This document shows, piece by piece, positions 2,679-22,809 of a stretch of DNA of 28,922 nt. The first letter of the stretch is position 1; each line of letters begins with the position of its first letter. Where the stretch lies: IMG/VR virus record IMGVR_UViG_3300035162_000891, positions 1-28,922 of that record, one strand, 5' to 3'. A program made the position numbers and the translations under genes. This DNA is from a virus. Under the pieces are notes generated by a model. The model did no database searches and was not told the origin of the DNA. It saw only the letters and a list, made by a program, of their open reading frames with translations.

Positions 2679-2681
2679 AGT

Positions 2682-2757: not shown

Positions 2758-2774
2758 ATATTAAATATTTTTTG

Positions 2775-2782
2775 TATATTTG
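2775..2782 (+). promoter_or_regulatory. Possible -7 box with no clear -33
   Basis: TATATTTG matches the -7 consensus and lies 22 bases before the ATG at 2805. The expected -33 position falls in the T-run of the preceding terminator (TTT, not TTG). It could be a weak or activated promoter. Confidence 0.35.
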
Positions 2783-2804
2783 TTTTAAATATTAAATATA
2801 TATT

Positions 2805-2984
2805 ATGGACAAAACAATCTCACACGAAGAACACTACATCCAAGTAGAATATTATCAAAATATTATTAAAAACTTACAAAATGATATTTATAATCTTAAA
2901 ATGAAAGACACAACTAATAAAGACTTTATTGAAATCTTAAAGGCTAAACTAGAAAATTTAAATAATAATCAAATTTTAACATAA
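2805..2984 (+). CDS. Small hypothetical protein, 59 aa
   Basis: An intact frame beginning MDKTISHEEHYIQVEYYQN and ending NNNQILT, four bases before the next start. It is helical, rich in Lys, Asn and Glu, with heptad-like spacing in the middle, and lacks a membrane segment or metal motif. It is the first gene after the terminator at 2757 and sits directly before the ERF gene. I do not recognise it; a short coiled-coil protein co-expressed with the recombination genes is the most that can be said. Confidence 0.6.
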   Translation: MDKTISHEEHYIQVEYYQNIIKNLQNDIYNLKMKDTTNKDFIEILKAKLENLNNNQILT

Positions 2985-2988
2985 CAAT

Positions 2989-3510: not shown

Positions 3511-3635
3511 GTAAATTAAATACAGCTTTATTATTGAAGCTAAATATTAAAGATAAAGAAACTTTAAAAAAAAGAGCAAAGGATAAAAGAATGACCTTAA
3601 GTGGTTACATTAGGAATGAATTATTAAACAATTAA
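3507..3635 (+). CDS. Ribbon-helix-helix-like small protein, 42 aa
   Basis: A short gene overlapping the erf stop (ATGA). The product contains LLLKLNIKDKETLKKRAKDK followed by RMTLSGYIRNELLNN. A beta-strand, a helix with the KxxLKxxAxxxxMTLSxYIRxxL pattern and a final helix are typical of the ribbon-helix-helix (CopG/Arc) fold, which binds operators as a dimer. At 42 residues it is the size of a minimal RHH repressor. It may control the early genes; no operator was identified. The fold is a pattern match by eye. Confidence 0.6.
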   Translation: MSKLNTALLLKLNIKDKETLKKRAKDKRMTLSGYIRNELLNN

Positions 3636-3646
3636 ATATATAAATT

Positions 3647-3937
3647 ATGGCAGGAATTATTACAGCAAGTATTAGGGTAGATAAATTACCTAAAGAAAAA
3701 TTTATCAAAGGTAAAGATGGTGCAGTTTATTACAACTTTACTTTATCAATTAATGACGAAAGTAAATATGGAAACAATGTTTGGGTTACCGATAGTCAAA
3801 CTAAAGAAGAAAGAGAAGCAAAAGTTAATAAACTTTCTTTAGGTAACGGAAAAGTAGTTTGGACAAACAATATTATTAATGTTGCAGAACAAGAGCAACA
3901 AGTTGCCCAAGCAGTAAATGAAGATTTACCATTTTAA
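3647..3937 (+). CDS. ssb: Short single-stranded DNA-binding protein
   Basis: A 96-residue protein ending in NEDLPF, the acidic tip that SSB proteins use to recruit partners (usually DDIPF or DDLPF). The body has the beta-rich pattern of an OB fold: ITASIRVDKLPKEKF, then VYYNFTLSINDESKYGNNVWVTD with aromatic residues expected to stack on bases, and NGKVVWTNNIINV. It is shorter than a bacterial SSB (about 170 residues) and lacks the long flexible linker. It follows an Erf-like gene and is closed by a strong terminator, so it probably protects single strands for annealing and replication. Confidence 0.78.
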   Translation: MAGIITASIRVDKLPKEKFIKGKDGAVYYNFTLSINDESKYGNNVWVTDSQTKEEREAKVNKLSLGNGKVVWTNNIINVAEQEQQVAQAVNEDLPF

Positions 3938-3962
3938 CTAAAATCTTTTTTTTAAATTTTAT

Positions 3963-3989
3963 AAGGGGAATTAATTTTCCCCTTTTTTT
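3963..3989 (+). terminator. Intrinsic terminator
   Basis: Perfect 8-bp stem AAGGGGAA (3963-3970) with TTCCCCTT (3977-3984), loop TTAATT, then T to 3989. It ends the erf-ssb unit. The loop is the same as in the terminator at 2727. Confidence 0.88.
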
Positions 3990-4005
3990 ATTGAAATAAA
4001 ACATA

Positions 4006-4013
4006 TATATTTA
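4006..4013 (+). promoter_or_regulatory. Possible -7 box before the ATPase gene
   Basis: TATATTTA resembles TAnnTTTG and lies five bases before the ATG at 4018. As at 2775, the -33 position falls in the terminator's T-run. A transcript from here would be almost leaderless, so this is weak. Confidence 0.25.
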
Positions 4014-4017
4014 TAAT

Positions 4018-4863
4018 ATGCAAAAAAGACTTGATGATGCTGAAACTATTCAGTTTTTAATAATGGAAAGTATAGAAGCTGATTGTTATATTAATCCAAA
4101 AGAATCTTTAGAATATCCTCCAGTTGCTTTATCTTATGGAGAAAATTTAATTAAAACAAAAAAAGGAGATATGCTTTTGCCTATACCATTAGGAACATTT
4201 GGAAACTTCTCTTTAATTCAAGCACCACCTAAAACCAAAAAAACATTCTTTGTATCTCTTTTAGCATCTGTATTTTTAGGAACAACAAACAACTTTGGAG
4301 GTAAATTAAAAGGCCATAGAGAAGATAAAAATGTTATTCACATAGATACTGAACAGGGGAAATGGCACGCACAAAAATCATTTAAAAGAGTGTTAGAAAT
4401 GAATAAACAGGATTATTCAGAAAATTATCTTACATTTGGATTAAGGACGATTGGATTTAAACAACGAATTGAATTTATAGAATACTGTTTAGAACATAAA
4501 TCTAAAGATACAGGACTTTTAATTATAGATGGGATTGCTGATTTAGTTAGTGATGTTAATAATTTAGAAGAATCTAATGCTTGTATTCAAAAAATTATGG
4601 AATGGTCCGAAAACTACAAAGTACATATTATGTGTGTGATTCATTCTAACTTTGGAAGCGACAAACCCACAGGACATTTGGGAAGTTTTATGGAAAAAAA
4701 ATGTGAGGTTCAAATTCAGTTAGAAGCAAATACTGTAAACAAAGAATGGACAACTGTTAAATGTAAAAGAAGTAGAGGTTACTCATTTGAAACATTTAGT
4801 TTTCAAATTAATGAAGTTGGTATGCCTGAAATTATTGGGAATTTATATGATCCTTTAAAATAA
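4018..4863 (+). CDS. RecA/RepA-like P-loop ATPase, probable replicative helicase or loader
   Basis: A 281-residue protein with a RecA-type core. The Walker A position reads LIQAPPKTKKTFF at about residues 66-78, a variant in which the usual glycines of GxxGxGKT are Pro and Lys while the KT end is kept. Walker B is LLIID at 167-171, preceded by VIHIDTEQGKWHAQKSFKRV (105-124) with the catalytic-type Glu. A motif like RepA/DnaB sensor, IMCVIHSN, lies near 204-211. Such AAA_25/RepA-like proteins unwind DNA or load helicase at phage origins. It follows the SSB gene and precedes the sigma-like gene by one base. Confidence 0.75.
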   Translation: MQKRLDDAETIQFLIMESIEADCYINPKESLEYPPVALSYGENLIKTKKGDMLLPIPLGTFGNFSLIQAPPKTKKTFFVSLLASVFLGTTNNFGGKLKGHREDKNVIHIDTEQGKWHAQKSFKRVLEMNKQDYSENYLTFGLRTIGFKQRIEFIEYCLEHKSKDTGLLIIDGIADLVSDVNNLEESNACIQKIMEWSENYKVHIMCVIHSNFGSDKPTGHLGSFMEKKCEVQIQLEANTVNKEWTTVKCKRSRGYSFETFSFQINEVGMPEIIGNLYDPLK

Positions 4864-4864
4864 T

Positions 4865-5344
4865 ATGCAGCAACTTTTAAAAGATATTTATTTAAAACAC
4901 GATATATGGATTGATATTGTAAAATCTTTTGGTTGTAAACATTATTATGCTGAAGACATAGTTCAGGAAATGTATATTAAAATTATTAGATACCATAATA
5001 AAGGATTGAATATTGATTATGGAGACAAAGATTTTAATTATTATTATATATTTTTAACTTTAAAAACACTTTATTTTAATTTACAAAAAAAAGAAAACAA
5101 AGTTTTAATTTTAAATATAGATGACGAAAATTGTATCAACGAACAGTATGATGTTGACTTTGAAAAAAGCTATAATAAAGTTTTAAAAGAATTAAATAAA
5201 ATGTATTGGTATGATAAAAAAGTTTATGAATTATTAAGTGGAAACCAATCAATAGCAAACTTATCAAGAAGAACAAATATACCTTATCATTCATTATATA
5301 ACACTTATAGAAAAGTAATAGAAAAATTAAAAAAACAAATATGA
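4865..5344 (+). CDS. Sigma-70/ECF-like protein, candidate phage sigma factor
   Basis: A 159-residue protein with the two-part layout of an ECF sigma factor. Residues 29-40 read AEDIVQEMYIKI, a close match to the region 2.2 motif that contacts core RNA polymerase (A-E-D-L-V-Q-E-x-F-x-K). The C-terminal 45 residues (YELLSGNQSIANLSRRTNIPYHSLYNTYRKVIEKLKKQ) form a region-4-like helix-turn-helix. The middle linker is long and acidic. It starts one base after the ATPase stop and overlaps the next gene. A late-gene specificity factor is plausible given the repeated motif upstream of virion genes. Some such phage proteins are HTH regulators without true sigma activity. Confidence 0.6.
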   Translation: MQQLLKDIYLKHDIWIDIVKSFGCKHYYAEDIVQEMYIKIIRYHNKGLNIDYGDKDFNYYYIFLTLKTLYFNLQKKENKVLILNIDDENCINEQYDVDFEKSYNKVLKELNKMYWYDKKVYELLSGNQSIANLSRRTNIPYHSLYNTYRKVIEKLKKQI

Positions 5345-5835
5345 CTTATAAATTTCCTAAATCCTTTTGGTTAATTTCTGAACAAATAGGCTATGCAAGA
5401 AATGTAATGAATAAAGAAAATAATAAAATTAACACTAGATTTGATAGAGGTATTAAAAATACTCACGTAGATACTCTAGGAATATTAGGAGAGTTAATTA
5501 CAATAGATTATTTAACAAATATAAATGAACCTTTTAATGTAGCTAATTTAATAGATTTTAAATCAAGCAAGAACCCTGATTTTATTTTAAAAAACAAAAG
5601 AATAGACGTTAAAACAAATCAGCATTCTCAATATTCACATTTACTTGTAAACGAAGAAGCACATAAAAAAGGTTTAAATAAAATAGATTTATATTGGTTT
5701 GTTTATATTTTAGATAAAACTACTGCTGAATTTTATTTTATAGATTATAATAAAATAAGTAACTGGGATTGTAAATTAATGAAATATACAAATGCCTATT
5801 ATATTAAAAGAGAAGATTTAAAAATAAAATTATGA
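5341..5835 (+). CDS. PD-(D/E)XK-like nuclease
   Basis: A 164-residue protein with the catalytic spacing of the PD-(D/E)XK fold: an early helix GILGELITIDYL with E51, then NPDFILKNKRIDVKTN with D80 and the D89-V90-K91 triad on adjacent strands. The downstream region HLLVNEEAHKKG and IDLYWFVYILDK gives the expected remaining helix and strand. It overlaps the sigma-like gene by four bases (ATGA). It is probably a recombination or restriction-like endonuclease acting on phage or host DNA. The fold call is fairly firm; substrate unknown. Confidence 0.62.
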   Translation: MTYKFPKSFWLISEQIGYARNVMNKENNKINTRFDRGIKNTHVDTLGILGELITIDYLTNINEPFNVANLIDFKSSKNPDFILKNKRIDVKTNQHSQYSHLLVNEEAHKKGLNKIDLYWFVYILDKTTAEFYFIDYNKISNWDCKLMKYTNAYYIKREDLKIKL

Positions 5836-5966
5836 AACTAGGAGATTTAATTTATTACTTTACAAAATATACAGGAATAAGATATGTTTGGAAAAAAATA
5901 TATCCTGATTGTAAATGTGATAAAAGAAGAACTGACTGGAATAAAATAAAAATTAATAAATGGTAA
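5832..5966 (+). CDS. Small Cys-containing phage protein, 44 aa
   Basis: Starts on the ATGA overlap of the previous gene and overlaps the next by seven bases. The product reads GDLIYYFTKYTGIRYVWKKI, then CKCDKRRTDWNKIKI. The pattern TKxTGI followed by DCxCDxRRxxxN matches a family of short proteins that I recognise from Bacteroidota phages and whose function is unknown. Two cysteines are too few for a zinc site in one chain. The gene call is good because of coupling at both ends. Confidence 0.6.
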   Translation: MKLGDLIYYFTKYTGIRYVWKKIYPDCKCDKRRTDWNKIKINKW

Positions 5967-6172
5967 AATTTAATAACGATGACTACAAACATTGGACTGC
6001 CTTTCTTTCAAACCCAAACGAGTTCAATGAAAAAGAATATAACTTGGTGTGTAAACTCCACTCAAAATACTTTAAACATCAACTATTTAAACCCTGTCCC
6101 TCTTGTTCTAGAAGTATTATAAATCGTTATATAAAAGAATTAAATACCATTTACAAAAATGGGGATAAATAA
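5960..6172 (+). CDS. Small CxxC protein, 70 aa
   Basis: A 70-residue protein with an N-terminal Trp/Asn-rich helical part (DDYKHWTAFLSNPNEFNEKE), a LVCKLHSKYFKH segment and a CPSC motif at about residues 46-49 followed by a basic helix SIINRYIKEL. The extra Cys and His upstream could complete a zinc site. It overlaps both neighbours. The product looks like a small DNA-binding accessory protein, but I do not recognise a family. Confidence 0.6.
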   Translation: MVKFNNDDYKHWTAFLSNPNEFNEKEYNLVCKLHSKYFKHQLFKPCPSCSRSIINRYIKELNTIYKNGDK

Positions 6173-6569
6173 AATTCATAAACTAGAGCAAACTTTAATA
6201 AGGTTTTTAAATTTTGATGGCTGGGATTTAAAATGGACTGGAAAAGGTTACGAGCATTATGATGCTTCAGGATTTACAAGAAAAGGTGTTCCTTGTGTTA
6301 TTGAAATGAAATTTAGAAATAAATACTATGAGGATAAAATGCTTGAAAAATATAAATATGATGAATTAATGAAAATGGATAAAGAAATTGTAAAACTTTA
6401 TTTTGTAAATGATCCTAAAGGAAATTTTTTATATTGGTTAAATACATTAGAAATGCCAAAACCTGTAGAAAGATATTGTCCTGATACTACATTATGGACA
6501 AAAAAAAGAATACTAAAACCAGTATATCTCCTCAAGGAAAACCAAGCAACAAAAATAAACTTGAATTAA
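6159..6569 (+). CDS. Holliday-junction-resolvase-like PD-(D/E)XK nuclease
   Basis: A 136-residue protein. Residues 28-53 (GKGYEHYDASGFTRKG, then CVIEMKFR) give D35 and the E49-M50-K51 pair, the arrangement seen in archaeal-type and VRR-Nuc-like resolvases. A following YYEDKMLEKYKYDELMK helix and LYFVNDP strand complete the small nuclease fold. The C-terminal third (NTLEMP to TKINLN) carries a CPDTTLWTKKR segment. It lies after a small CxxC gene with a 14-base overlap and before the RNA unit at 6571. It probably processes branched DNA or trims modified DNA; the exact substrate is unknown. Confidence 0.65.
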   Translation: MGINKIHKLEQTLIRFLNFDGWDLKWTGKGYEHYDASGFTRKGVPCVIEMKFRNKYYEDKMLEKYKYDELMKMDKEIVKLYFVNDPKGNFLYWLNTLEMPKPVERYCPDTTLWTKKRILKPVYLLKENQATKINLN

Positions 6570-6570
6570 A

Positions 6571-6602
6571 TTTGTTTATTATATATTTTATATATATCTT
6601 TA
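6571..6602 (+). promoter_or_regulatory. Bacteroidota-type promoter
   Basis: TTTG at 6571-6574 and TATCTTTA at 6595-6602 with 20 bases between. It begins one base after a stop codon. Nearly identical in sequence to the promoter at 13338 over TTTGTTTATTA and the TA-rich spacer. The predicted start falls at about 6607-6610, exactly where the RNA stem begins. Confidence 0.65.
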
Positions 6603-6607
6603 TACTA

Positions 6608-6685
6608 TTAGTAATGAGGTTGAGCACTCAGTTAATTGGAAAGATGGAGTACAATTAAATCTTCTAACAACTCATTACTTTTTTT
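6608..6685 (+). ncRNA. Candidate small structured RNA with terminator stem
   Basis: No convincing open frame. AGTAATGAG (6610-6618) pairs perfectly with CTCATTACT (6671-6679), extended after one bulged G by TTG (6620-6622) with CAA (6668-6670); T-run to 6685. Inside, TTAATTG (6632-6638) pairs with CAATTAA (6652-6658), or AAGAT (6641-6645) with ATCTT (6659-6663). TGAGCACTCA (6621-6630) is a palindrome. The promoter's predicted start coincides with the foot of the stem, so this looks like a complete small-RNA gene of about 77 bases. A leader that attenuates the genes at 6703 onward is the alternative. Confidence 0.55.
6610..6685 (+). terminator. Long-stem intrinsic terminator closing the RNA unit
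   Basis: The 12-bp outer stem of the RNA (6610-6622 with 6668-6679) runs directly into seven T (6679-6685). The loop is about 45 bases with its own hairpin, longer than a usual terminator loop, so termination may depend on internal folding. Confidence 0.5.
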
Positions 6686-6702
6686 AATTTAAAATATTTA
6701 TT

Positions 6703-6885
6703 ATGATAAAACTTGAAAAGTACAAACAAAATTTAGCCATACAAGGAAACAAAGTATGGAGTTACACAACTAATGTTGCAACTATTGAAGGCAGTAAATT
6801 AATACAACACGGATGGTGGAGTGTTACTACTCAAAAGCATATTAATTATGTAGCAAAAGAACTTAATTTAGAATTAATTAAATGA
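6703..6885 (+). CDS. Hypothetical protein, 60 aa
   Basis: A compact 60-residue protein: MIKLEKYKQNLAIQGNKVWSYTTNVATIEGSKLIQHGWWS, then a helical end HINYVAKELNLELIK. A strand-rich start with V-x-S-Y-x-T-x-V-A and a tail of the kind in which a helix packs on a sheet resemble small conserved phage proteins of unknown function. It overlaps the exonuclease gene by four bases (ATGA). No role is proposed. Confidence 0.65.
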   Translation: MIKLEKYKQNLAIQGNKVWSYTTNVATIEGSKLIQHGWWSVTTQKHINYVAKELNLELIK

Positions 6886-7595
6886 TTTTATTGGTGGATG
6901 CGGATAGTTTAGTATTCGCAAGTTGTTTTAGAACTAAAAATAATCCAGAAGAAAATAAGTTTTATACTGACATAAAACATTCTATTGCAAAGTTTGACCA
7001 ACAATTTATGAAAATTGTAAACGATCTTGAAAATATATATGAGATTGAAAAGGTCATTACATTTAATGGATGCAAAGGTAATTTTAGAAAACAAATAACT
7101 AAAAATTATAAAGCTAATAGAAAAAAACAAGAGTTACCTCCACTTCTTCATCCTATGCACCAATACGTTAAAGATACTTACGAAAGTAAATATGCCTTTG
7201 GTGTTGAAACAGATGATATGGTAGCGAGATATTGGTTTACATTAAGCCAAGAATTTGGCAGAGATAATGTAATGATTATTTCCATTGATAAAGACTATAA
7301 ACAATTTCCTTGTCTTATGTATAATTATCATCATAAACATAAAGTCATTTTGGATATAAGCAAACAAGAAGCCTTATATAATTTCTATGAGCAAATGATA
7401 GTTGGAGATTCAGCAGACAATGTAAACTACTTTAAAGGCAAGGGAAAGAAGTTTGCTCAAAACTATTATCAGGATTGCAACACACAATACCAATATACTA
7501 AAAAACTTTATAAATTATTTAAACAACAATATAAAGGTAAAGCAAAATTGAAGTATATTGAATGCTATAATTTATTAAAATTAAGAACAACATAA
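6882..7595 (+). CDS. 5'-3' exonuclease / flap endonuclease-like (T5 D15, RNase H family)
   Basis: A 237-residue nuclease of the FEN/5'-3' exonuclease superfamily. Acidic metal ligands appear in order: VDADS with D6 and D8, then NYKANRKK at 75-82 (the basic arch segment), ETDDMVARYW at 109-118, IISIDKDYKQF at 132-142, and a helix-hairpin region starting GDSADNV at 175-181. It is shorter than T5 D15 (291 residues). It would remove RNA primers or trim 5' flaps during replication. It overlaps the upstream gene and is followed directly by a TTG-start gene. Confidence 0.85.
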   Translation: MILLVDADSLVFASCFRTKNNPEENKFYTDIKHSIAKFDQQFMKIVNDLENIYEIEKVITFNGCKGNFRKQITKNYKANRKKQELPPLLHPMHQYVKDTYESKYAFGVETDDMVARYWFTLSQEFGRDNVMIISIDKDYKQFPCLMYNYHHKHKVILDISKQEALYNFYEQMIVGDSADNVNYFKGKGKKFAQNYYQDCNTQYQYTKKLYKLFKQQYKGKAKLKYIECYNLLKLRTT

Positions 7596-7804: not shown

Positions 7805-7822
7805 ATGTTATATATATATATA
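7805..7822 (+). promoter_or_regulatory. Diverged copy of the ATGTTATATAAATA motif
   Basis: ATGTTATATATATATATATG lies directly before the ATG at 7822. The first ten bases match the motif seen before virion genes; the AAATA part is replaced by a TA repeat. It is the weakest member and marks the start of the modification operon. Confidence 0.35.
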
Positions 7823-8358
7823 TGAAACAACAAGTTAAAATTTATAAAATAAAAGGAAATCCTAAAAATCCAAGAATTGTAAAAGATTATAATTTTAAAA
7901 AATTAGTTAATTCTATTAAAAACTTTCCTCAAATGATGGAAAAAAGACCTTTAATAGTTGATGAAAACTATATGATACTGGGAGGGAATATGAGATGGAA
8001 GGCTTGTCAAGAATTAAAAATGAAAGAAATTTGGATTGATGATGCTGAGGATTGGACTGAAGAACAAAAGAATGAATTTATTATAAAGGATAATGTTGGT
8101 TCAGGAGAATGGGATTGGGATTTATTAGCAAACGAATATAGTAATGAAGAACTTAAAGACTGGGGATTAGATGTTTGGCAGCCTGATGAAGATATAAACT
8201 TAGATGATTTTTTTGAAGAAGATAAATCAGAACCAGCAGAGGAAACAAATAAAATTGTTTTAGAATATTCTAAAGAAGATTACGAAATAATAATTAAAAA
8301 GTTTACTTCTTTAGGTGGCTCTAAGGAAAGTGTTGTTTGGGAATCATTAGGATTATGA
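7822..8358 (+). CDS. ParB/Srx-domain protein, candidate partner of DpdA
   Basis: A 178-residue protein. Residues 14-62 contain the ParB/sulfiredoxin nuclease-domain pattern: NPKNPRIVKDYNFKKLVNSI, then RPLIVDENYMILGGNMRWKA, with the family's GG-x-x-R box. The remainder is acidic (WTEEQKNEF and LDDFFEEDKSEPAEET) and ends in a helix with KESVVWESLGL, as in phage ParB-like proteins often next to DNA modification enzymes. The stop overlaps the DpdA start (ATGA), so the two are translationally coupled. It might position or energise DpdA on DNA, by analogy to bacterial DpdB working with DpdA. That link is inference. Confidence 0.75.
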   Translation: MKQQVKIYKIKGNPKNPRIVKDYNFKKLVNSIKNFPQMMEKRPLIVDENYMILGGNMRWKACQELKMKEIWIDDAEDWTEEQKNEFIIKDNVGSGEWDWDLLANEYSNEELKDWGLDVWQPDEDINLDDFFEEDKSEPAEETNKIVLEYSKEDYEIIIKKFTSLGGSKESVVWESLGL

Positions 8359-9086
8359 AAGTGTTTTTAGCAGGAAGCGGCTTAACAAAAGTTTGGCAAG
8401 ATAAAAATTATTATGATTTTTATAGGCTACAAACCTTTTACCACATAACCCCAAAAGAAGCATCTGAAATACATTTGTACAAAGATTTTCTTTTAGATAG
8501 TGGAGCATTTAGTTTTTTTGGAGGAAAAGAAGTAAACTGGAACAAGTATGTGACTACGTATATAGATTTTATTAATAAACACAATATAAAACATTTTTTT
8601 GAACTTGATTTATATTCAATTATAGAAATTAATGAAACTGAAAAATTAAGAGATAGAATTGAAAAAGAAACAGGTAAACAGTCAATCCCTGTATTTCATA
8701 AAATGTTAGGGGTAGAGTACTATAAAACTCTTTGTGAGAATTATAAATATATAGCTATATCAGCTTCGGGAATGTACGAAAGCAAGTGGACAAGAGAAGA
8801 ACCTAAAAGACTTGAAAAAATGGTAAGATACGCAAATAGTAAAGGAGTAAAAGTTCACGGATTAGGTTATACTAAAATTAAAATGCTGCATAAAATACCT
8901 TTTTATTCTGTTGATTCTACTTCTTGGTTAAGTGGAAATAGGTTTGGCGCAGTATATAGATTTAATGGTAATGGATTTAATAAAATTAGCAAACCAGCAG
9001 GAATGAGAGTTAAGACAAATTTAACCGCTGACAACAATTTTTATGAATGGGTAAAATTTCAAAAATATGCAGAACATAATTTATAA
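8355..9086 (+). CDS. dpdA: DpdA-like DNA guanine transglycosylase (7-deazaguanine insertion)
   Basis: I use the ATG at 8355, overlapping the previous stop. The 243-residue product is TGT-like, in the family that swaps guanine in DNA for a 7-deazaguanine. LLDSGAFSFF places D48-S49-G50 where TGT has its conserved active-site Asp (DSGGFQ). FFELDLYSI (D85) and HGLGYTK (168-174) fit the barrel, and SVDSTSW supplies D187, the likely nucleophile. It is shorter than bacterial DpdA (about 400 residues) and lacks the C-terminal zinc site of tRNA TGTs, as in phage versions. It sits in one operon with the four precursor genes, which strongly supports DNA modification and not tRNA queuosine. Confidence 0.82.
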   Translation: MKVFLAGSGLTKVWQDKNYYDFYRLQTFYHITPKEASEIHLYKDFLLDSGAFSFFGGKEVNWNKYVTTYIDFINKHNIKHFFELDLYSIIEINETEKLRDRIEKETGKQSIPVFHKMLGVEYYKTLCENYKYIAISASGMYESKWTREEPKRLEKMVRYANSKGVKVHGLGYTKIKMLHKIPFYSVDSTSWLSGNRFGAVYRFNGNGFNKISKPAGMRVKTNLTADNNFYEWVKFQKYAEHNL

Positions 9087-9092
9087 AAAAAA

Positions 9093-9758
9093 ATGAAAAA
9101 AGCAATAGTATTACTATCAGGAGGGCAAGATTCTACAACTTGTTTGTATTGGGCAAAAAAATATTATAATCATATTGAGGCAATAGGTTTTGATTATGGA
9201 CAAAGCCATAAACAAGAATTAAAACAAGCAGAAAAAATAGCATCAAGATTAAATATTAAATATAAAATATTTAACATAAAAGGACTTTTAGCATCCTCCT
9301 CTTTAACAGAACACACAGATCATTCCAAAGCATCTTATATTGACGATAGTTTACCGGCATCTTTTACAGCAGGAAGAAATATATTATTTTTAACAATAGC
9401 GGCAAGTTATGGAGCAGAGCAAGGAATAAACGATTTAGTAACTGGAGTTTGTCAAACTGATTATAGTGGCTATCCTGACTGTAGAAAATCAACTATGGAT
9501 GCTTTACAAACCACTTTATCTTTAGGGTTGGGCGCAGGAGATTATAGAATACATACTCCTTTAATGTATTTAGATAAAGCAGAAACTTGGAAGTTAGCTA
9601 AAGACTTAAATTGTTTAGATGTTATTATAAACGATACTTTAACAGACTACAATGGAGATATGACTGAAAACGAATGGGGTTATGGTAACGAAAATAATCC
9701 AGCAACCGAATTAAGAGTAAAAGGATATTATAAAGCAAAAGAAAAAGGTTGGATATGA
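9093..9758 (+). CDS. queC: QueC, 7-cyano-7-deazaguanine synthase, zinc site lost
   Basis: A 221-residue PP-loop enzyme that converts CDG to preQ0 with ATP and ammonia. SGGQDS at residues 9-14 is the PP-loop, and the core (GFDYGQSH, PASFTAGRN, GVCQTDYSGYPDCR) is typical. Unusually, all four structural zinc cysteines are missing. The family's TCY reads TDY (D185), and the usual CGxCPAC reads NENNPAT at residues 199-205, so the Cys positions hold N199, N202 and T205. The flanking WGYG and ELRxKG are intact, so this is substitution and not truncation. It may fold without zinc, or make only the amide (ADG), or act with reduced efficiency. Six bases separate it from dpdA. Confidence 0.88.
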   Translation: MKKAIVLLSGGQDSTTCLYWAKKYYNHIEAIGFDYGQSHKQELKQAEKIASRLNIKYKIFNIKGLLASSSLTEHTDHSKASYIDDSLPASFTAGRNILFLTIAASYGAEQGINDLVTGVCQTDYSGYPDCRKSTMDALQTTLSLGLGAGDYRIHTPLMYLDKAETWKLAKDLNCLDVIINDTLTDYNGDMTENEWGYGNENNPATELRVKGYYKAKEKGWI

Positions 9759-10162
9759 AAATAGAAAAGAAATATTATTTTTATGCAGGACACCGAAATA
9801 AAACAGCAGGAGAAAAATGCTCAAGATTACACGGACACACTTATGATGTCAAATGTGTGTTTAGATTTACTATAATGAAAGACGGAATAACAATGTTGTT
9901 TAGTGATATTGATAAAAAAGTAGAACCTATAATTAAATTCTATGACCACTATTTTATTTTATGGGAAGAAGACCCATTATGTGATATATTAAGATTTGCA
10001 AACGAACCTTATCGTCAAGTACCTTTTGAAACTTCAGCAGAGAATATGGCAATATGGTTATTTAATAGAATAAAGAACGAAGCAAAAATGCCAATAGTAA
10101 GAATAGAATTACAAGAAACAAAAACAAGTACAATTATATATGAGCCAGAAATTAGCAATTAG
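9755..10162 (+). CDS. queD: QueD, 6-carboxy-5,6,7,8-tetrahydropterin synthase
   Basis: ATG at 9755 overlaps the queC stop (ATGA); an in-frame TTG two codons earlier is less likely. The 135-residue product belongs to the PTPS/QueD family, the second step from GTP. Zinc ligands H13 (YAGHRN), H27 and H29 (LHGH) are present, with the catalytic Cys at 22 (EKCSRLHGHTY). A Glu in the C-terminal ELQETKTSTIIYE matches the substrate-binding Glu. The length is normal (about 120-140). It is expected to act on dihydroneopterin triphosphate made by FolE at 10871. Confidence 0.9.
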   Translation: MKIEKKYYFYAGHRNKTAGEKCSRLHGHTYDVKCVFRFTIMKDGITMLFSDIDKKVEPIIKFYDHYFILWEEDPLCDILRFANEPYRQVPFETSAENMAIWLFNRIKNEAKMPIVRIELQETKTSTIIYEPEISN

Positions 10163-10871
10163 TGAAGTCTTTTACTCTATTCAAGGAGAAGGAAAGACTG
10201 TAGGAATACCAAGTGTCTTTGTTAGGTTAGGAGGATGTAATTTAATGTGTGGAGGAATGGGAACTCAATTTGATGGAGAGTTACATAATGGAGCAGAGTT
10301 TAGATGTGATACTGTAGAGGTGTGGATGAATGCCCAAGCTAAAGAAATACATAAAGTTTTAAATAAAGAATGTATTAAAGCAATTAAAAACAATGCTCAT
10401 ATAGTTTTAACAGGAGGAGAACCAATGATGCAGCAAAAAGGTTTAATTGAATTTATTAAATATGTTAAAACAAAAATAAATAATAAAGCATATTTTGAAG
10501 TTGAAACTAATGGAACTATAATGCCAAATGAATATTTATTACTTCATATTGATTTATGGAATTGTAGTCCTAAACTTCTTAATTCTGGTAACGATAGGTC
10601 ACTTACATTTAAACCTGAAGTCATTGATGTATTGAATCATTGTAATACAATTTTTAAATTTGTAATAAATAAAAACAATGAGTGGGAAGAAATTAAAGAA
10701 TTATATCTACCAATTATAGATAAGAAGAAAATTTATTTAATGCCGGCAGGAGAGAACCAAGAGTTATTAAATAAGAATAAAATAAAAGTAGTTGAGATAG
10801 CAAAAAAAAATTATTTAAATTTTACTACAAGATTACATATTGACATTTGGAATAAAAAAACTGGAGTATAA
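10140..10871 (+). CDS. queE: QueE, 7-carboxy-7-deazaguanine synthase (radical SAM)
   Basis: A 243-residue radical-SAM enzyme making CDG from QueD's product. The start ATG lies inside the end of queD (23-base overlap), and the N-terminus SEVFYSIQGEGKTVGIPSVF is canonical. Cluster cysteines read GCNLMC (C33, C37) and then FRCDT (C56): 18 residues with TQFDGELHNGAEF separate the second and third, where most QueE have two. I have seen similar inserts in phage QueE sequences. VLTGGEPMMQ binds SAM, and FKFVIN and MPAGEN follow in family order. It would supply the substrate for QueC. Confidence 0.9.
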   Translation: MSQKLAISEVFYSIQGEGKTVGIPSVFVRLGGCNLMCGGMGTQFDGELHNGAEFRCDTVEVWMNAQAKEIHKVLNKECIKAIKNNAHIVLTGGEPMMQQKGLIEFIKYVKTKINNKAYFEVETNGTIMPNEYLLLHIDLWNCSPKLLNSGNDRSLTFKPEVIDVLNHCNTIFKFVINKNNEWEEIKELYLPIIDKKKIYLMPAGENQELLNKNKIKVVEIAKKNYLNFTTRLHIDIWNKKTGV

Positions 10872-11722
10872 TGGAAAAATCATATATCACTTGGGAAGTT
10901 ATTTACGATAGAGTAAATACAATATTAGAAAACACACCTAAAGATAAAACCTTTTATGGTGTTCCAAGAGGAGGACAAATAGTAGCAGGAATGACAGGCA
11001 GAGCAGTTGATAAGATTGAAGATGCTGATATTATTATTGATGACTTAATAGATAGTGGAGCAACTCAAGAAAGATATAAAAAGTATAATAAACCTTTTGT
11101 GGCTTTAATAGATAAAAGAATAGAACTTCAAAATCAATGGTTAGTATTTCCTTGGGAGATGAGAGACAACGATAAAGAAGAAAGTGTAGAGGAAACTGTA
11201 GAAGATAATGTAACCAGATTATTACAATTCTTTGGAGAAGATGTTACAAGAGAAGGTTTAAAAGATACTCCTAAAAGATATGTTAAATTCTTTCAAGAGT
11301 TTTTAAATCCTCCTAAATGGAACTGCACTACATTTGAAGGAGAAGGTTATGATGAAATGATAATACAAAAAGATATTCCGTTTCATTCATTATGCGAACA
11401 TCACATAGCACCATTTTTTGGAGTAGGTCATATTGCTTATATTCCAAATAAAAAGATTGTAGGATTATCTAAACTCGCAAGAACTTTAGAAACCTATTCA
11501 AGAAGATTACAGAACCAAGAAAGGATTACAACACAAGTAGCTGAGTTTTTGTGGAATGAATTACAACCAAAAGGAGTTGCAGTATCACTTACTGCGAAAC
11601 ATATGTGTATGGAAATGAGAGGGGTTAAAAAACATAACACATCAACAACAACTAACAAGTTATTAGGATTCTTTAAAACTGATCCAGACGCAAGAAATGA
11701 ATTTTTAAACTCTATCAGATAA
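10871..11722 (+). CDS. folE: Phosphoribosyltransferase-GTP cyclohydrolase I fusion
   Basis: A 283-residue two-domain protein. Residues 1-95 have a short type-I phosphoribosyltransferase: VPRGG at 31-35 and the PRPP loop DIIIDDLIDSGAT at 53-65. After an acidic linker (about 98-112) comes a full FolE: LCEHH with C175, H177 and H178 and the second zinc Cys in KHMCMEMRGV (C246). FolE converts GTP to dihydroneopterin triphosphate, the first step to preQ0. The PRT domain might return the guanine that DpdA releases to GMP and so to GTP, but that is inference. The start overlaps the queE stop (TAATG). The terminase small-subunit ATG overlaps this stop in the same way. Confidence 0.85.
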   Translation: MEKSYITWEVIYDRVNTILENTPKDKTFYGVPRGGQIVAGMTGRAVDKIEDADIIIDDLIDSGATQERYKKYNKPFVALIDKRIELQNQWLVFPWEMRDNDKEESVEETVEDNVTRLLQFFGEDVTREGLKDTPKRYVKFFQEFLNPPKWNCTTFEGEGYDEMIIQKDIPFHSLCEHHIAPFFGVGHIAYIPNKKIVGLSKLARTLETYSRRLQNQERITTQVAEFLWNELQPKGVAVSLTAKHMCMEMRGVKKHNTSTTTNKLLGFFKTDPDARNEFLNSIR

Positions 11723-12078
11723 TGAACAAAACCGAACACCATAAAAAAGCATTATTAGAAGCACTTAGAAAAACTTTAGGGATAGTAACAAATGCTTGTG
11801 ATAAAGTAAATGTAGGAAGAACCACATATTATGATTGGTATAATAACGATGAGGAGTTTAGAAACAAAGTAGATGACTTACAGAATGTAGCTTTAGATTT
11901 TGCAGAAAGTCAATTACATAAACAAATATCAAAGCAATCAACAGCAGCAACTATATTCTATTTAAAGACAAAAGGAAAGAAAAGGGGGTATATTGAAAGA
12001 CAAGAAATTACAGGTGCTGATGGAATGCCTACTAACTTTCAAATAGAAATAATTGATAAAACCGAAGATACAGACTAA
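11722..12078 (+). CDS. terS: Terminase small subunit
   Basis: A 118-residue protein with an N-terminal helix-turn-helix: ALLEALRKTLGIVTNACDKVNVGRTTYYDWYNNDEEF (about residues 10-46), the recognition-helix pattern GRTTYYDWxxxDEEF being typical of small terminases. A helical oligomerisation stretch LDFAESQLHKQISKQSTAATIFYLKTKGK follows, then the family's RGYIERQEITG box. It would recognise the packaging site and load the large subunit. It overlaps the large terminase gene by 26 bases. Confidence 0.85.
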   Translation: MNKTEHHKKALLEALRKTLGIVTNACDKVNVGRTTYYDWYNNDEEFRNKVDDLQNVALDFAESQLHKQISKQSTAATIFYLKTKGKKRGYIERQEITGADGMPTNFQIEIIDKTEDTD

Positions 12079-13216
12079 TATTGTTTACAAACATTTAGTT
12101 AGAAGTAATAAAAAGATTATAGTTGAGCAAGGTGGAACAAGGTCAGGCAAAACTTATAATATACTTTTATTTATAATCTTTCATTATTGTACTAATAATA
12201 ACAATAAAATAATAACTATCTGTCGTAAAACCTTTCCAAGTTTAAGAGCAACAGTTTTAAGAGATTTTCTACAAATATTAAAACATAATCAAATATACAG
12301 GGAAGAGTTTCATAACAAGTCAAGTAGTGAATATCATCTGTTTGGAAACTTAGTAGAATTTACATCACTTGACCAGTCACAAAAGATTAGAGGAAGAAAA
12401 AGAGATTTACTTTTTATTAATGAGGGGAATGAATTATATTGGGAAGACTGGCAACAACTAATATTTAGAACACAAGAACGTATTATATTAGACTTTAATC
12501 CTTCAGACGAATACCATTGGATTTATGATAAAATAATAACAAGAGAAGACTGTGAATTTCATAAAACAACTTACTTAGATAATCCTTTTTTAGAAGATGT
12601 TATTAAACAAGAGATAGAAAGGTTAAAAGATACTGATGACCAATATTGGCAAATTTATGGTTTAGGAGAAAGAGCAACAAGTATTTCAACTGTATTTAAT
12701 TATTCAGAAGTTAATAGTATTCCAGAAGATTCTAAACTTATTGCTTACGGAATGGATTTTGGGTATAGCAACGATCCTACGACACTTGTTTCTGTTTATA
12801 CACTTGGACATCATTTATATATTAAAGAGCATTTATATCGCACTAAAATGACTACACACGATATTCATTTGTTTTTAAAAGAACAAAACTTATTAAGCAA
12901 TCCAATTTATGCTGATAGTGCTGAACCTCGTTTAATTGCAGAACTTAGAAGGATGGGTCATAATATATTCCCAAGTTTAAAAGGAAAGGATTCAATTAAT
13001 GCAGGTATTGATTTACTTAAAAGATATAAAATACATATTACTTCTGATTCTAATAATGCTATTCAGGAGTTTAGAAACTACAAATGGAAAGAAGACAGGT
13101 CAGGTAAACTTATAAATGTTCCAGAAGATAAGCACAATCATTGCATTGACCCTTGTAGATACGCAACTTACTCTATACTAAGTAGACCTAACTTTGGAAA
13201 ATATGCAATACAATAA
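12053..13216 (+). CDS. terL: Terminase large subunit
   Basis: A 387-residue packaging motor. Walker A GGTRSGKT lies at residues 27-34, Walker B LLFINEGNEL near 119-128 with catalytic E124, and the coupling region IILDFNPSDEYHW follows. The nuclease half has GMDFGYSNDPTT (D235), YADSAEPR (D288) and a final DKHNHCIDPCRYA. No ATG exists in the N-terminal part, so I take the TTG at 12053, in the end of terS; starts with TTG occur elsewhere in this window. The size and motif order fit the T4-like/P22-like TerL group found in siphoviruses. Packaging genes lie directly after the modification operon. Confidence 0.92.
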   Translation: MIKPKIQTNIVYKHLVRSNKKIIVEQGGTRSGKTYNILLFIIFHYCTNNNNKIITICRKTFPSLRATVLRDFLQILKHNQIYREEFHNKSSSEYHLFGNLVEFTSLDQSQKIRGRKRDLLFINEGNELYWEDWQQLIFRTQERIILDFNPSDEYHWIYDKIITREDCEFHKTTYLDNPFLEDVIKQEIERLKDTDDQYWQIYGLGERATSISTVFNYSEVNSIPEDSKLIAYGMDFGYSNDPTTLVSVYTLGHHLYIKEHLYRTKMTTHDIHLFLKEQNLLSNPIYADSAEPRLIAELRRMGHNIFPSLKGKDSINAGIDLLKRYKIHITSDSNNAIQEFRNYKWKEDRSGKLINVPEDKHNHCIDPCRYATYSILSRPNFGKYAIQ

Positions 13217-13572: not shown

Positions 13573-13857
13573 ATGAAAGCAATACACGAATTAGAAAAAA
13601 GAATTAAAGAGTTAGAAAAAGAATTAAAAGAATCTAAAGAGAATACATACATATACGAAACGAATCATTTACAATGTTCTGATGGAGAAATCCATATAGG
13701 GTTTGGAGATTCTGGAGAGAATGAAAGGTGGTTAGTATGGAATACAGATAGTTTATTTAAAGACTTGCCATTTATAATTAGTCAAGTGATTAAAGAAAAT
13801 GATAAGCAACAAAAAATGTATTTAGATAGCATTAAGGATTCATTAAAAGAAATATAA
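13573..13857 (+). CDS. Hypothetical coiled-coil protein, 94 aa
   Basis: Residues 1-25 (MKAIHELEKRIKELEKELKE) have clear heptads of a coiled coil. The middle YIYETNHLQCSDGEIHIGFG and ERWLVWNTDSLFKDLPF suggest a small beta unit, and the end is helical. No enzyme motif. It is tightly placed between the 53-aa gene and a Cys-rich micro-gene that overlaps its stop (TAATG). The role is unknown. Confidence 0.6.
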   Translation: MKAIHELEKRIKELEKELKESKENTYIYETNHLQCSDGEIHIGFGDSGENERWLVWNTDSLFKDLPFIISQVIKENDKQQKMYLDSIKDSLKEI

Positions 13858-13961
13858 TGGAATTAGTATCAAATTGCTGTGGAGCAAACCCATATTTAAA
13901 TATAGAAACAGGAATGTGTTCAGATTGTAAAGAACATTGTGAGTTTATAGACATAGATTAA
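13857..13961 (+). CDS. Cys-rich micro-protein, 34 aa
   Basis: The ATG overlaps the upstream stop (TAATG). The product starts MELVSNCCGANPYLNIETG and carries MCSDCKEHCEF: CC at 7-8, CxxC at 21-24 and a further Cys at 28. A CCGA box followed by CxxCxxHC is typical of tiny zinc-binding proteins common in phages of Bacteroidota and elsewhere; their function is unknown. The gene call rests on the pattern and coupling. Confidence 0.55.
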   Translation: MELVSNCCGANPYLNIETGMCSDCKEHCEFIDID

Positions 13962-13983
13962 ATATAAAAGATTTGTTAAAACA

Positions 13984-14015
13984 TTTGGTAGTTATATATA
14001 TTATATATATCTTTA
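13984..14015 (+). promoter_or_regulatory. Bacteroidota-type promoter
   Basis: TTTG at 13984-13987 and TATCTTTA at 14008-14015 with 20 bases between. Same spacing and -7 sequence as the promoter at 6571. Predicted start about 14020, giving a 15-base leader to the ATG at 14036. Confidence 0.62.
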
Positions 14016-14035
14016 AGTATTATTAAAAACAAACA

Positions 14036-14206
14036 ATGAAAGAAATAGATTATATTAAAAAAGATATTAAGGCTCTTAAAAAGCATTTAAAAGATTGTAA
14101 AACAATGAACACTATGTATTTAGTTCCTGTTATAGAAGAACAATTATCTGCATTAGAAGCAAAAAGATTTGATTTAGAAATAGAACAATTTAAAGAATTT
14201 ATATAA
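14036..14206 (+). CDS. Small helical protein, 56 aa
   Basis: First gene after the 13984 promoter. The product MKEIDYIKKDIKALKKHLKD continues with CKTMNTMYLVPVIEEQLSAL to EQFKEFI; it is strongly helical with two heptad blocks and could be a short coiled-coil dimer. No known family. The next gene starts on its stop codon (TAATG), so they are translated together. Confidence 0.6.
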   Translation: MKEIDYIKKDIKALKKHLKDCKTMNTMYLVPVIEEQLSALEAKRFDLEIEQFKEFI

Positions 14207-14310
14207 TGATTAGAAAATATTTAAAACAGGATAAAAATAATATATGGAGATTAATAGGTTTTTATATATTAGCTACATTAGCAATAATAATCTTAACAAT
14301 TAAATTATGA
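14206..14310 (+). CDS. Single-span membrane micro-protein, 34 aa
   Basis: Starts on the preceding stop and ends in an ATGA overlap. A polar, basic start (MIRKYLKQDKNNIWR) leads into one transmembrane helix, residues 16-33 (LIGFYILATLAIIILTIK). Such a micro-protein could sit in the host inner membrane, for example in superinfection exclusion, but nothing in the sequence shows that. Positive-inside charge predicts N-in. Confidence 0.5.
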   Translation: MIRKYLKQDKNNIWRLIGFYILATLAIIILTIKL

Positions 14311-14492
14311 GGCCACTTAGACAATTCGGAACTTTGTTAAAAGATTTATTTAGTTCAAAAGAAAGTGAACATTTTTGGGTAAGAGTAAAGGAAACTAACT
14401 TAACTAAAAAAGAAAAAGAAGAACAAATTGTTGATATAATAGAACTATTAAATAATAGAATTAAAATAAATGGACAAAATACAGAATACTAA
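14307..14492 (+). CDS. Hypothetical protein, 61 aa
   Basis: Begins MRPLRQFGTLLKDLFSSKES with a basic start, followed by a helix-rich region with TNLTKKEKEEQIVDIIELLN. No motif I recognise. The start uses an ATGA overlap with the membrane micro-protein, and the end overlaps the next start by 23 bases. Low information otherwise. Confidence 0.55.
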   Translation: MRPLRQFGTLLKDLFSSKESEHFWVRVKETNLTKKEKEEQIVDIIELLNNRIKINGQNTEY

Positions 14493-14742
14493 AGACCTAT
14501 CATTTTATAATAATGCAATATTATTTACTGACTTACTTAATAAAAAAGTAAATGATAATATTGATGATAAGGAGTTAAAGTTAATGCAAACATTATTAAT
14601 AGACATTTTCTTTTATACTAATAACCTACAAACACATATAGCAAATTGTAAAGTAGCTAACAGTAAGTACAGAGAATTAAGAAATGATGCTTTATTAGAA
14701 TTAGAAGAACTTAAAGAAGATATAAAAGAATATGAATTATAA
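14470..14742 (+). CDS. Hypothetical helical protein, 90 aa
   Basis: A 90-residue, all-helical, acidic protein (DLSFYNNAILFTDLLNKKVN, then NDALLELEELKEDIKEYEL). One Cys, no membrane span. It overlaps the zinc micro-protein gene that follows by 11 bases. I do not recognise it; a coiled-coil accessory is the simplest reading. Confidence 0.6.
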   Translation: MDKIQNTKDLSFYNNAILFTDLLNKKVNDNIDDKELKLMQTLLIDIFFYTNNLQTHIANCKVANSKYRELRNDALLELEELKEDIKEYEL

Positions 14743-14842
14743 CACACCACCTTGTGATGAACCACAATACAAATGTATTGAATGTGAAAAGCCAATATAT
14801 GAGGAAGGATATTGCAGTAAACAATGTGAATATTTGGATTAG
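14732..14842 (+). CDS. Zinc-finger micro-protein, 36 aa
   Basis: The ATG lies in the end of the preceding gene. The product has PPCDEPQYKCIECEKPIYEE followed by GYCSKQCEYLD. CxxC at residues 15-18 and a later C-x3-C at 29-33, with another Cys at 8, give a complete treble-clef-like set of four or five ligands. The pattern is like small zinc ribbons that bind nucleic acids or proteins. The terminator at 14871 ends the unit after it. Confidence 0.55.
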   Translation: MNYNTPPCDEPQYKCIECEKPIYEEGYCSKQCEYLD

Positions 14843-14870
14843 TTAAAATACTTTTTGTTTGTTTAAATTG

Positions 14871-14897
14871 GGGAATTAGAAATAATTCCCTTTTTTT
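14871..14897 (+). terminator. Intrinsic terminator before the virion genes
   Basis: Perfect 8-bp stem GGGAATTA (14871-14878) with TAATTCCC (14883-14890), a GAAA loop and seven T to 14897. It separates the small-gene cluster from the tail genes. Confidence 0.88.
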
Positions 14898-14919
14898 GTT
14901 ATAAATTATACTAATTAAA

Positions 14920-14933
14920 ATGTTATATAAATA
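14920..14933 (+). promoter_or_regulatory. ATGTTATATAAATA motif before the tail chaperone gene
   Basis: The 14-base motif ends on the A of the start codon at 14933. It holds TATAAATA at 14926-14933. It follows a terminator, as a promoter would. The lack of a leader leaves open a role in translation initiation. Confidence 0.5.
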
Positions 14934-15583
14934 TGGAAATCAATGTTACTATACCGAATCATTTAAATGAAATTACTTTAAGACAGTATAAAAAGTTCTT
15001 GTCTATTCAAGAAAGTAATGACGACATTAATTTTATCCAAGCAAAAATGATTGAAATCTTTTGTGGTGTTAGTCATAAGTTAGCAACACAAATGAAGTAT
15101 GTTGATGTTGAAGATATTACAGGAACAATTAATAAAATGTTTTTAGAGAAACCTCAATTAGTTACTTCCTTTAAATTAAACGATAAAGAATATGGTTTTA
15201 TTCCTAAACTTGATGATATGACTTTAGGAGAATATATTGACCTTGATTCTTATACAGGCGATTATGATAAGATAGAAGTTGCAATGAATGTTTTATATAG
15301 ACCTATTAAAGCTAAGGTAGGAAGTAAATATGTTATTGAAGATTATGATCCTGAAACTAAAGATGAAATATTAGATATGCCAATGGATGCAGTTATTAGT
15401 TCTTTATTTTTTTTTCTGAATTTAGGACTGGAGTTGTCGGAAATTACCCTGAACTCTTTGAAAATAACTCCACCAATACAGTTGGAGGAACTCAAGCATT
15501 TTCAGCAAAGTATGGATGGTATCAATCGCTTTATGCCTTATCTAAAGGAGACGTTAGAAGAATTAAAAATATCACTGAATTAA
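14933..15583 (+). CDS. Tail assembly chaperone, zero-frame product
   Basis: A 216-residue protein with a typical start (MEINVTIPNHLNEITLRQY) and an acidic, helical body that looks like the G-type tail assembly chaperones used while the tape measure is coated. The frame continues past a run of nine T at 15407-15415 and ends after DGINRFMPYLKETLEELKIS. A second frame opens at that run and gives a longer product. Its location before tail genes, not between tail tube and tape measure, is unusual. The function is inferred from context, the N-terminal pattern and the frameshift. Confidence 0.65.
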   Translation: MEINVTIPNHLNEITLRQYKKFLSIQESNDDINFIQAKMIEIFCGVSHKLATQMKYVDVEDITGTINKMFLEKPQLVTSFKLNDKEYGFIPKLDDMTLGEYIDLDSYTGDYDKIEVAMNVLYRPIKAKVGSKYVIEDYDPETKDEILDMPMDAVISSLFFFLNLGLELSEITLNSLKITPPIQLEELKHFQQSMDGINRFMPYLKETLEELKISLN

Positions 15584-15669
15584 ATTTTCATCAATGTTTT
15601 TATATGTTAGCCTTTATGAAAGATAAAAACGAATTAGAAGCGCAACAAATGAAAAAAAAATTTAAATGA
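14933..15669 (+). CDS. Tail assembly chaperone, -1 frameshifted long product (G-T type)
   Basis: After the nine T at 15407-15415 a -1 slip gives a frame from TCT at 15415 that stays open for 84 codons to TGA at 15667. The product shares 161 residues with the short form and then adds FRTGVVGNYPELFENNSTN and a coherent domain AKYGWYQSLYALSKGDVRRI with HQCFYMLAFMKDKNELEA. The YGWY-LYAL-GD-RRI and LAFMKxKxELE patterns resemble T-domain sequences of other phages. The TGA overlaps the next ATG (ATGA), as expected if this frame is translated. No independent start is needed. A single-base sequencing error in the T-run is the alternative. Confidence 0.68.
15407..15415 (+). other. Slippery run of nine T
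   Basis: Zero-frame TTT TTT TTT; a one-base backward slip keeps perfect codon-anticodon pairing (TTT on TTT). Both frames stay open for over 160 bases after it. No obvious stimulatory hairpin was identified directly after it. Confidence 0.6.
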
Positions 15670-16136
15670 GCCAACAAGGAACAAGAGCATTTTATCAAGC
15701 AACAGAAGCTATTAAAGCACAGCTACTAGCTGATGTAAATGTACATACAGTAACAACAGGAGATATTTCTGAAGTTGATTTACAAAAGCAAACGATCTTC
15801 CCTTTATCACACATTATAGTTAATAATGTTTCTCAGGAAGATGGAGTGTTAAGATTTAACATTAGTGTCTTGGCAATGGATATTGTCCACCAATCAAAGG
15901 AAATAACAATAGACCAGTTTGAAGGTAATAACGATTTACAAGATATTTTAAATACTCAGTTAGCAGTTTTAAATAAACTTATTCAAGTATTAAGGAAAGG
16001 AACTTTACATTTTGATAAATACCAATTAGATGGCAATTCTAATATCGAACCTTTTTATGATAGATTTGAAAACAGTTTAGCAGGTTGGACAGCTACAATG
16101 GATGTTTTAATTTATAACGACATAAGTATCTGTTAA
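15666..16136 (+). CDS. Tail terminator or tail completion protein, hypothetical
   Basis: A 156-residue protein starting MSQQGTRAFYQATEAIKAQL, with a mixed alpha/beta body (SHIIVNNVSQEDGVLRFNIS and LVLIYND-like strands), a length and layout similar to tail terminator or neck proteins in the gpU/HK97 gp10 neighbourhood. It overlaps the frameshifted chaperone's stop (ATGA) and touches the next start (TAATG). No decisive motif is visible, so the name follows from position and size. Confidence 0.5.
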   Translation: MSQQGTRAFYQATEAIKAQLLADVNVHTVTTGDISEVDLQKQTIFPLSHIIVNNVSQEDGVLRFNISVLAMDIVHQSKEITIDQFEGNNDLQDILNTQLAVLNKLIQVLRKGTLHFDKYQLDGNSNIEPFYDRFENSLAGWTATMDVLIYNDISIC

Positions 16137-22806: not shown

Positions 22807-22809
22807 ATT

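Follow-up and report, generated by a model that had tools for sequence, protein, structure and literature searches.

The closest described phage systems to the operon reported here are those of the group 2 phages, which possess DpdA together with FolE, QueD, QueE and QueC but no amidotransferase (Hutinet 2019, PMC6884629). In the measured members of this group, 2'-deoxy-7-cyano-7-deazaguanosine (dPreQ0) takes the place of about 32% (CAjan) and about 28% (Rosebush) of the guanines, and dPreQ0 is abolished in CAjan when dpdA is deleted (PMC6884629). A bacterial counterpart is the Dpd system in which a DpdA resembling tRNA-guanine transglycosylase (TGT) is accompanied by DpdB, described as a ParB-like ATPase that drives dPreQ0 insertion (PMC12839542). 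For mycobacteriophage CRB2, the ParB gene that precedes DpdA has been proposed as a possible dpdB homolog, from one genome and with no linkage survey (PMC6392294). The locus considered here is a six-gene run at 7822-11722 of IMG/VR record IMGVR_UViG_3300035162_000891, a linear virus record (28,922 bases, 28% G+C) that was analysed over its whole length (hereafter the window). It is very probably a phage DNA-hypermodification operon, through which 7-cyano-7-deazaguanine (preQ0) would be made and inserted into the phage's own DNA and host restriction would be resisted.

The window matches the group 2 gene set and resembles Rosebush and CAjan in combining DpdA with FolE, QueD, QueE and QueC and no amidotransferase. 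Unlike these phages, it belongs to another lineage, likely of Bacteroidota phages, its FolE is fused to a phosphoribosyltransferase (PRT) domain and its QueC is a zinc-less variant. The order ParB-DpdA-QueC-QueD-QueE-FolE is shared with Mycobacterium phage Rinkes (PQ449568) and Arthrobacter phage Sonali (MK411746), the DpdA proteins of which are about 27-30% identical to that of the window; the mycobacteriophage comparison used Rinkes and Nadezda. In Rinkes the terminase also follows the operon, after an adenylate kinase gene. Rinkes differs in that ParB and DpdA are separated by an additional gene, whilst the FolE of Sonali is unfused. The bacterial Dpd system shares the pairing of a TGT-like DpdA with a ParB-like protein but is a host restriction-modification island with a longer DpdB, whereas the window has neither DpdC nor restriction genes.

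This type of 7-deazaguanine operon is already known, and what is new is a near-constant ParB-like partner of DpdA, a miniature xanthine-guanine phosphoribosyltransferase (XGPRT) domain fused to FolE, a QueC that lacks its zinc site and an exchange of dpdA among related phages, all of them comparative findings. A large uncultivated group, probably of Bacteroidota phages and mostly environmental, would thereby join the phages with 7-deazaguanine DNA. The locus also yields testable predictions, namely a ParB-fold DpdA partner, a guanine-salvage-like domain on the first precursor enzyme, a zinc-independent QueC and dpdA exchange. Marks of this kind bear on restriction, on the signals of long-read sequencing and on the host range of phages.

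Layout of the operon

The six genes lie on the + strand and are joined by overlaps or by a gap of at most six bases, just as the original prediction had described them, and family searches upheld all six gene calls with scores far beyond chance. The ParB-like and DpdA genes share an ATGA overlap, DpdA and QueC are separated by 6 bases, the QueD ATG at 9755 overlaps the QueC stop (with a TTG upstream at 9749), QueD and QueE overlap by 23 bases, and QueE and PRT-FolE by 1 base. The chain extends past 11722, with overlaps and in the same direction, into the genes for the small and large terminase subunits. Scans for promoters and terminators gave no more signals than were found in shuffled sequence.

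The DpdA transglycosylase

The predicted DNA guanine transglycosylase, DpdA, is a protein of 243 residues encoded at 8355-9086 (+ strand). It is assigned with an E-value of 1.8e-46 to PHROG 887 ('queuine tRNA-ribosyltransferase'), the DpdA family of phages. A structural search had been suggested for this product, and its AlphaFold2 model, built from 79 relatives with a predicted local distance difference test score (pLDDT) of 92.3, covers the TGT fold over its full length (Z 14.9, 236 aligned residues). The link between DpdA and TGT comes from fold comparison only; a sequence search of the PDB with DpdA, either singly or as a profile, returned no relative. No solved bacterial DpdA appears among the 50 fold matches listed, an absence that carries no weight. 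A scan of viral contigs with the single DpdA sequence likewise gave no relatives, and a four-row alignment was needed to find them.

The catalytic aspartates correspond to D48 and D187. Across the 79 relatives D48, D85 and H168 are invariant and D187 is at least 90% conserved. H168 shares the motif HG[LF]G.T with His196 of the 9g-type phage JenP1, and it is histidine 196 of the phage 9g DpdA that separates DpdA from DpdA2, in which it is absent (Hutinet 2019, PMC6884629). The window protein has a single Cys, so that the zinc site of TGT cannot form. From its family membership we infer that the protein acts on DNA.

TGTs are nevertheless the closest solved folds, and FolE, QueD, QueE and QueC constitute the normal route to preQ0, which is what would be expected were the operon to feed host queuosine synthesis, raising preQ0 for tRNA modification with the DpdA-like protein as a tRNA enzyme. 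This is very improbable given the phage DpdA family membership, the lone Cys and the DpdA histidine. Moreover, the ParB-DpdA pair is kept in phages without precursor genes, and no queuosine-specific gene (QueA, QueG or QueH) and no tRNA gene was recognised across the 28,922-base record, although the record may be a fragment, so that absences outside the operon are no proof.

Precursor enzymes and the inserted base

The route to the modified base would begin with FolE, converting GTP to dihydroneopterin triphosphate, from which QueD would form carboxytetrahydropterin, QueE 7-carboxy-7-deazaguanine (CDG) and QueC, acting on CDG, preQ0. The FolE domain, a GTP cyclohydrolase I at 11162-11722 (+ strand), matches PF01227 (3.2e-65) and TIGR00063 (201.8 bits, above the cut-off of 181.6). 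Its fold aligns with human GTP cyclohydrolase I at Z 22.8 and 46% identity, and the zinc ligands CEHH and C246 are conserved. QueD, the 6-carboxytetrahydropterin synthase at about 9755-10162 (+ strand), matches PF01242 (5.7e-24) and reaches 62.7 bits with TIGR03367, below the cut-off of 89.25; its catalytic Cys24 and zinc-binding His15, His28 and His30 are present and 0.91-1.0 conserved. The radical S-adenosylmethionine enzyme QueE, a 7-carboxy-7-deazaguanine synthase at 10140-10871 (+ strand), belongs to PHROG 2076 (2.1e-55) and scores 66.4 bits with the best NCBIfam QueE model, below cut-off. The cysteines of its cluster are spaced CX3CX18C rather than CxxxCxxC, an arrangement found in 59 of 123 relatives. 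Other QueE relatives have CX5CX6C, CX3CX5C or the canonical CX3CX2C.

QueC, a 7-cyano-7-deazaguanine synthase family protein of 221 residues at 9093-9758 (+ strand), is well supported as a family member (PF06508 at 5.5e-59; TIGR00364 at 198 bits, above the cut-off of 150.3). The hallmarks of canonical QueC are SGGxDS, YxQxHxxE and a C(x)8CxxCxxC zinc motif that is held to be required for function (PMC13329287). The window protein keeps the first two as SGGQDS (residues 9-14) and YGQSHKQE, whilst the zinc tetrad is missing and TDYNG...NPATELR stands in its place, which counts against a complete preQ0 pathway. The same variant (TDYNG...NPA), with SGGxDS and YxQxHxxE kept, occurs in 28 other distinct relatives, making 29 of 78 with the window, and also on Bacteroidota chromosomes, within queD-queC-queE clusters (L245-L250). 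The presence of zinc-less QueC in these cellular operons is the reason to regard it as probably functional, and the notion of a dead enzyme was dropped once it had been found there. On the same ground, the protein probably completes preQ0. Very short QueC-like proteins of about 141 residues with SGGxDS occupy the QueC slot in a few other loci (L008:4591-5016, L009 and L019).

The original prediction had left the base as preQ0, 7-amido-7-deazaguanine (ADG) or CDG. A 7-deazaguanine is supported, and preQ0 is much the likeliest, ADG and CDG less so, because the operon has a full QueC without a Gat domain and there is no DpdC-like protein. No amidotransferase (Gat domain, ArcS or QueF/QueF-L) was recognised in the window, nor was a DpdC-like DUF6884 protein or a transporter found there. 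The earlier statement that the window has no QueF or dpdC-like gene therefore holds, the only QueF match being a fold-related one given by FolE itself. It is quite unlikely that another 7-deazaguanine is inserted, be it ADG, CDG, 7-aminomethyl-7-deazaguanine (preQ1) or a further decorated base, whether through an early stop at the zinc-less QueC or through a later enzyme encoded beyond the record or by the host. The missing zinc tetrad and the possibly fragmentary record would accord with such an outcome, as would the QueF-like, methyltransferase, glycosyltransferase-like or DUF6884 proteins that relatives add. Set against this are the cellular operons with the same QueC, the absence of DUF6884 from the window and from 11 related records, and the restriction of QueF, beyond the weak match of FolE, to the two records with the inserted gene.

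The preQ0 so formed would be the substrate of DpdA which, aided by the adjacent ParB-fold protein, would exchange it for guanine in replicated phage DNA with release of the guanine. The modified DNA would then be packaged, the operon running directly into the terminase genes, and would be expected to resist host restriction enzymes.

The ParB-like partner of DpdA

The first gene of the operon (7822-8358, + strand) encodes a protein of 178 residues with a ParB/sulfiredoxin fold, which is proposed to be a DpdA helper. It belongs to PHROG 620 (E 1.4e-23) and scores just below the cut-off for PF02195 ParB_N (E 2.1e-5; 24.9 bits against 26.3). When its profile was compared with known structures it matched ParB CTPases at E 2.5e-14 and sulfiredoxin at 5e-5.

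Viral-contig scans with DpdA, PRT-FolE and QueC gave 178 loci. These included 123 distinct DpdA loci, of which 12 with DpdA at a contig edge were set aside to leave 111 that could be tested. In 110 of the 111, DpdA has a ParB-like gene on its own strand no more than 650 bases away; the spacing is at most 250 bases in 97, and at most 10 bases, or an overlap, in 82. The order is reversed, DpdA preceding ParB, in 9 of the 110 paired loci, and the sole exception to the pairing is Bacteroides phage BS162P1. Conversely, 146 of the 148 ParB hits in the 1.9 Mb of collected loci fall within 1 kb of DpdA. As the loci were picked for DpdA, FolE or QueC, these counts measure linkage to DpdA and not prevalence. 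ParB and DpdA are likewise paired in phages of Mycobacterium, Arthrobacter, Cellulophaga and Fusobacterium, as well as in loci from assemblies of Firmicutes, Bacteroidota, Actinobacteria and Patescibacteria.

Several observations speak against a dedicated partnership. No adjacent ParB gene is found in the Escherichia Queuovirinae, the group of CAjan, including JenP1 and the CAjan relative KurtStettler, which in this respect differ from the window. The same is true of Rhizobium and Achromobacter phages, and in all three sets DpdA is located close to the DNA polymerase clamp; nor is there an adjacent ParB where DpdA stands isolated, in HK106, Vibrio D105 and an Acinetobacter phage. The curated DpdB model NF041060 (352 positions) gives no match in the window and only weak matches, all below cut-off, in Bacteroidota, so that a DpdB-like role is claimed for the protein and not membership of DpdB. 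DpdB itself is reported to be dispensable in some bacterial clusters (PMC12839542). Furthermore, ParB distances track those of the large terminase subunit TerL (rank r 0.43) above those of DpdA (0.13, or a partial 0.23 given TerL), which means that ParB and DpdA are not inherited as a sealed unit. A strictly co-inherited pair, as examined by these divergence ranks, was only weakly supported.

ParB-fold genes are common in phages, and the closer tracking of TerL and the unmatched DpdB model would both be accommodated if the gene were a separate partition or nuclease gene that neighbours DpdA by chance of position only. That explanation is nonetheless unlikely in view of the adjacency in 110 of 111 loci, which survives reversal of the gene order and loss of the remaining operon, and of its spread through Firmicutes, Bacteroidota, Actinobacteria, Patescibacteria and Fusobacterium-associated loci. 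From this linkage, the ParB-like protein probably plays the role of the bacterial DpdB as a nearly constant companion of DpdA and is not a bystander. The role of bacterial DpdB is only partly understood, and a phage ParB-fold partner is relevant to it.

The phosphoribosyltransferase domain fused to FolE

The N-terminal part of the PRT-FolE protein (10871-11161, + strand; the first 97 residues or so) is a miniature XGPRT domain. Its profile matches the XGPRTs of E. coli and Yersinia with E-values of 1e-11 to 5e-10, and its fold aligns with E. coli XGPRT at Z 11.8. Conservation is 0.93 or above at R33, G34, G35, D57, D58, D61, T65 and W90, and 0.89 at K82. The domain thus keeps the PRGG loop for pyrophosphate (PPi), the acidic DDxxDSGxT loop for phosphoribosyl pyrophosphate (PRPP) and the stacking W90, and has its fold and its PRPP- and base-binding residues in common with E. 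coli Gpt. It differs from Gpt in being fused to FolE and in the deletion of an insertion of about 27 residues, which in Gpt carries the flexible loop that separates the PPi loop from the PRPP loop. Lacking this loop, the domain could be non-catalytic, which detracts from a salvage function, and it is not filed as an active XGPRT.

Relatives matching across both PRT and FolE were found in at least about 80 viral contigs. The fusion is also present in Vibrio phage VpKK5, a Stenotrophomonas phage and Pseudomonas phage Quinobequin-P09, where it is annotated as GTP cyclohydrolase only and is adjoined by a DpdA-like gene. No account of the fusion turned up in a literature search, which is weak evidence of absence.

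Each insertion by DpdA frees one guanine and each preQ0 costs one GTP, so salvage of guanine would close the loop; by arithmetic only, replacement at the level of Rosebush would free about 2,300 guanines per copy of the record. The mini phosphoribosyltransferase most likely binds guanine and PRPP, and might either salvage the ejected guanine to GMP, feeding GTP to FolE, or sense it. The domain may hence recycle the guanine ejected by DpdA. There is a substantial chance, a little short of even, that it instead serves FolE as a degenerate scaffold or a regulatory domain and salvages no guanine. This would suit both the deleted loop and the existence of relatives whose FolE has no PRT domain. It sits less easily with the 0.93-1.0 conservation of the PPi-loop, PRPP-loop and base-stacking residues across relatives, and with the conservation of the same residues in the Vibrio, Stenotrophomonas and Pseudomonas phages.

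Exchange of dpdA between relatives

The closest relatives of the window in its backbone, L165 and L088, have QueC, QueD, QueE, FolE and terminase genes that are 80-91% identical to those of the window (FolE 91%), whereas their ParB is 61% and their DpdA 40% identical. At 74% identity, the window DpdA is closer to the DpdA of L005, a distant relative whose QueD and QueE are only 27-29% identical. In approximately unbiased (AU) tests, a clade of the window and three backbone relatives, chosen after the identities had been seen, is rejected by the DpdA alignment (p 4e-48) and not by the FolE alignment (p 0.28). This discordance shows that dpdA has been exchanged separately from the precursor genes; an altered target sequence is one candidate reason for the exchange.

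A more speculative proposal combines these features into a closed guanine-exchange loop, in which the mini-XGPRT would recapture guanine as GMP for the next preQ0, and the ParB-DpdA pair would form an interchangeable insertion head whose swapped dpdA alleles change which guanines are modified, much as specificity subunits are swapped in restriction-modification systems. No description of such a scheme was found in the literature searched. In this combined form it is possible, though on the doubtful side.

Variants of the operon

The exact order ParB-DpdA-QueC-QueD-QueE-FolE occurs in 42 loci, and the six-gene order is seen in a human-gut phage contig and dozens of uncultivated viral contigs. 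The operon is modular, with ParB-DpdA as its core. A Vut_1/YhhQ transporter replaces the precursor genes after ParB-DpdA in at least 10 loci (including L045, L046, L052, L059 and L070), which are predicted to be an import-fed version of the system. About ten loci have a class I methyltransferase-like protein in the QueC slot (L028:1744-2358, L005, L006, L025 and L010), which suggests methylated CDG or another base. QueC-lacking operons may also carry a small protein of PHROG 17812, accompanied in some cases by a glycosyltransferase-like protein (L127:5741-6895, L160:831-1217, L135:6467-6889), and here CDG processing and decoration of the base are possible. Other loci add a QueF-like protein. 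On gene content, the variants that replace QueC or add QueF are predicted to make other end products.

Fusobacterium phage phiFN37 has ParB, DpdA, DUF6884 and a queuosine-precursor transporter in a row (L003:7360-9669). The DUF6884 protein shows weak similarity to the DpdC family (PF03883), and the row is possibly a miniature dpd cluster in a phage. Tandem DpdA-like genes are present in some prophage or phage-like loci (L202, L208, L228 and L233), those of Streptomyces included.

Surrounding genes

The terminase small subunit (11722-12078, + strand; PHROG 4044, 2.1e-7) overlaps PRT-FolE by 1 base and is followed by the large subunit (12053-13216, + strand; PF04466 at 2e-23, PHROG 2 at 7e-44), for which the best matches among isolates are Flavobacterium phages at 36%. 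The upstream part of the record (110-7595) encodes an endolysin, a holin, a NinG-like nuclease, an Erf-like annealing protein and a 5'-3' exonuclease. The downstream part (13573-28593) holds many unknowns, and the portal protein, at 26062-28071, is unusually distant from the terminase.

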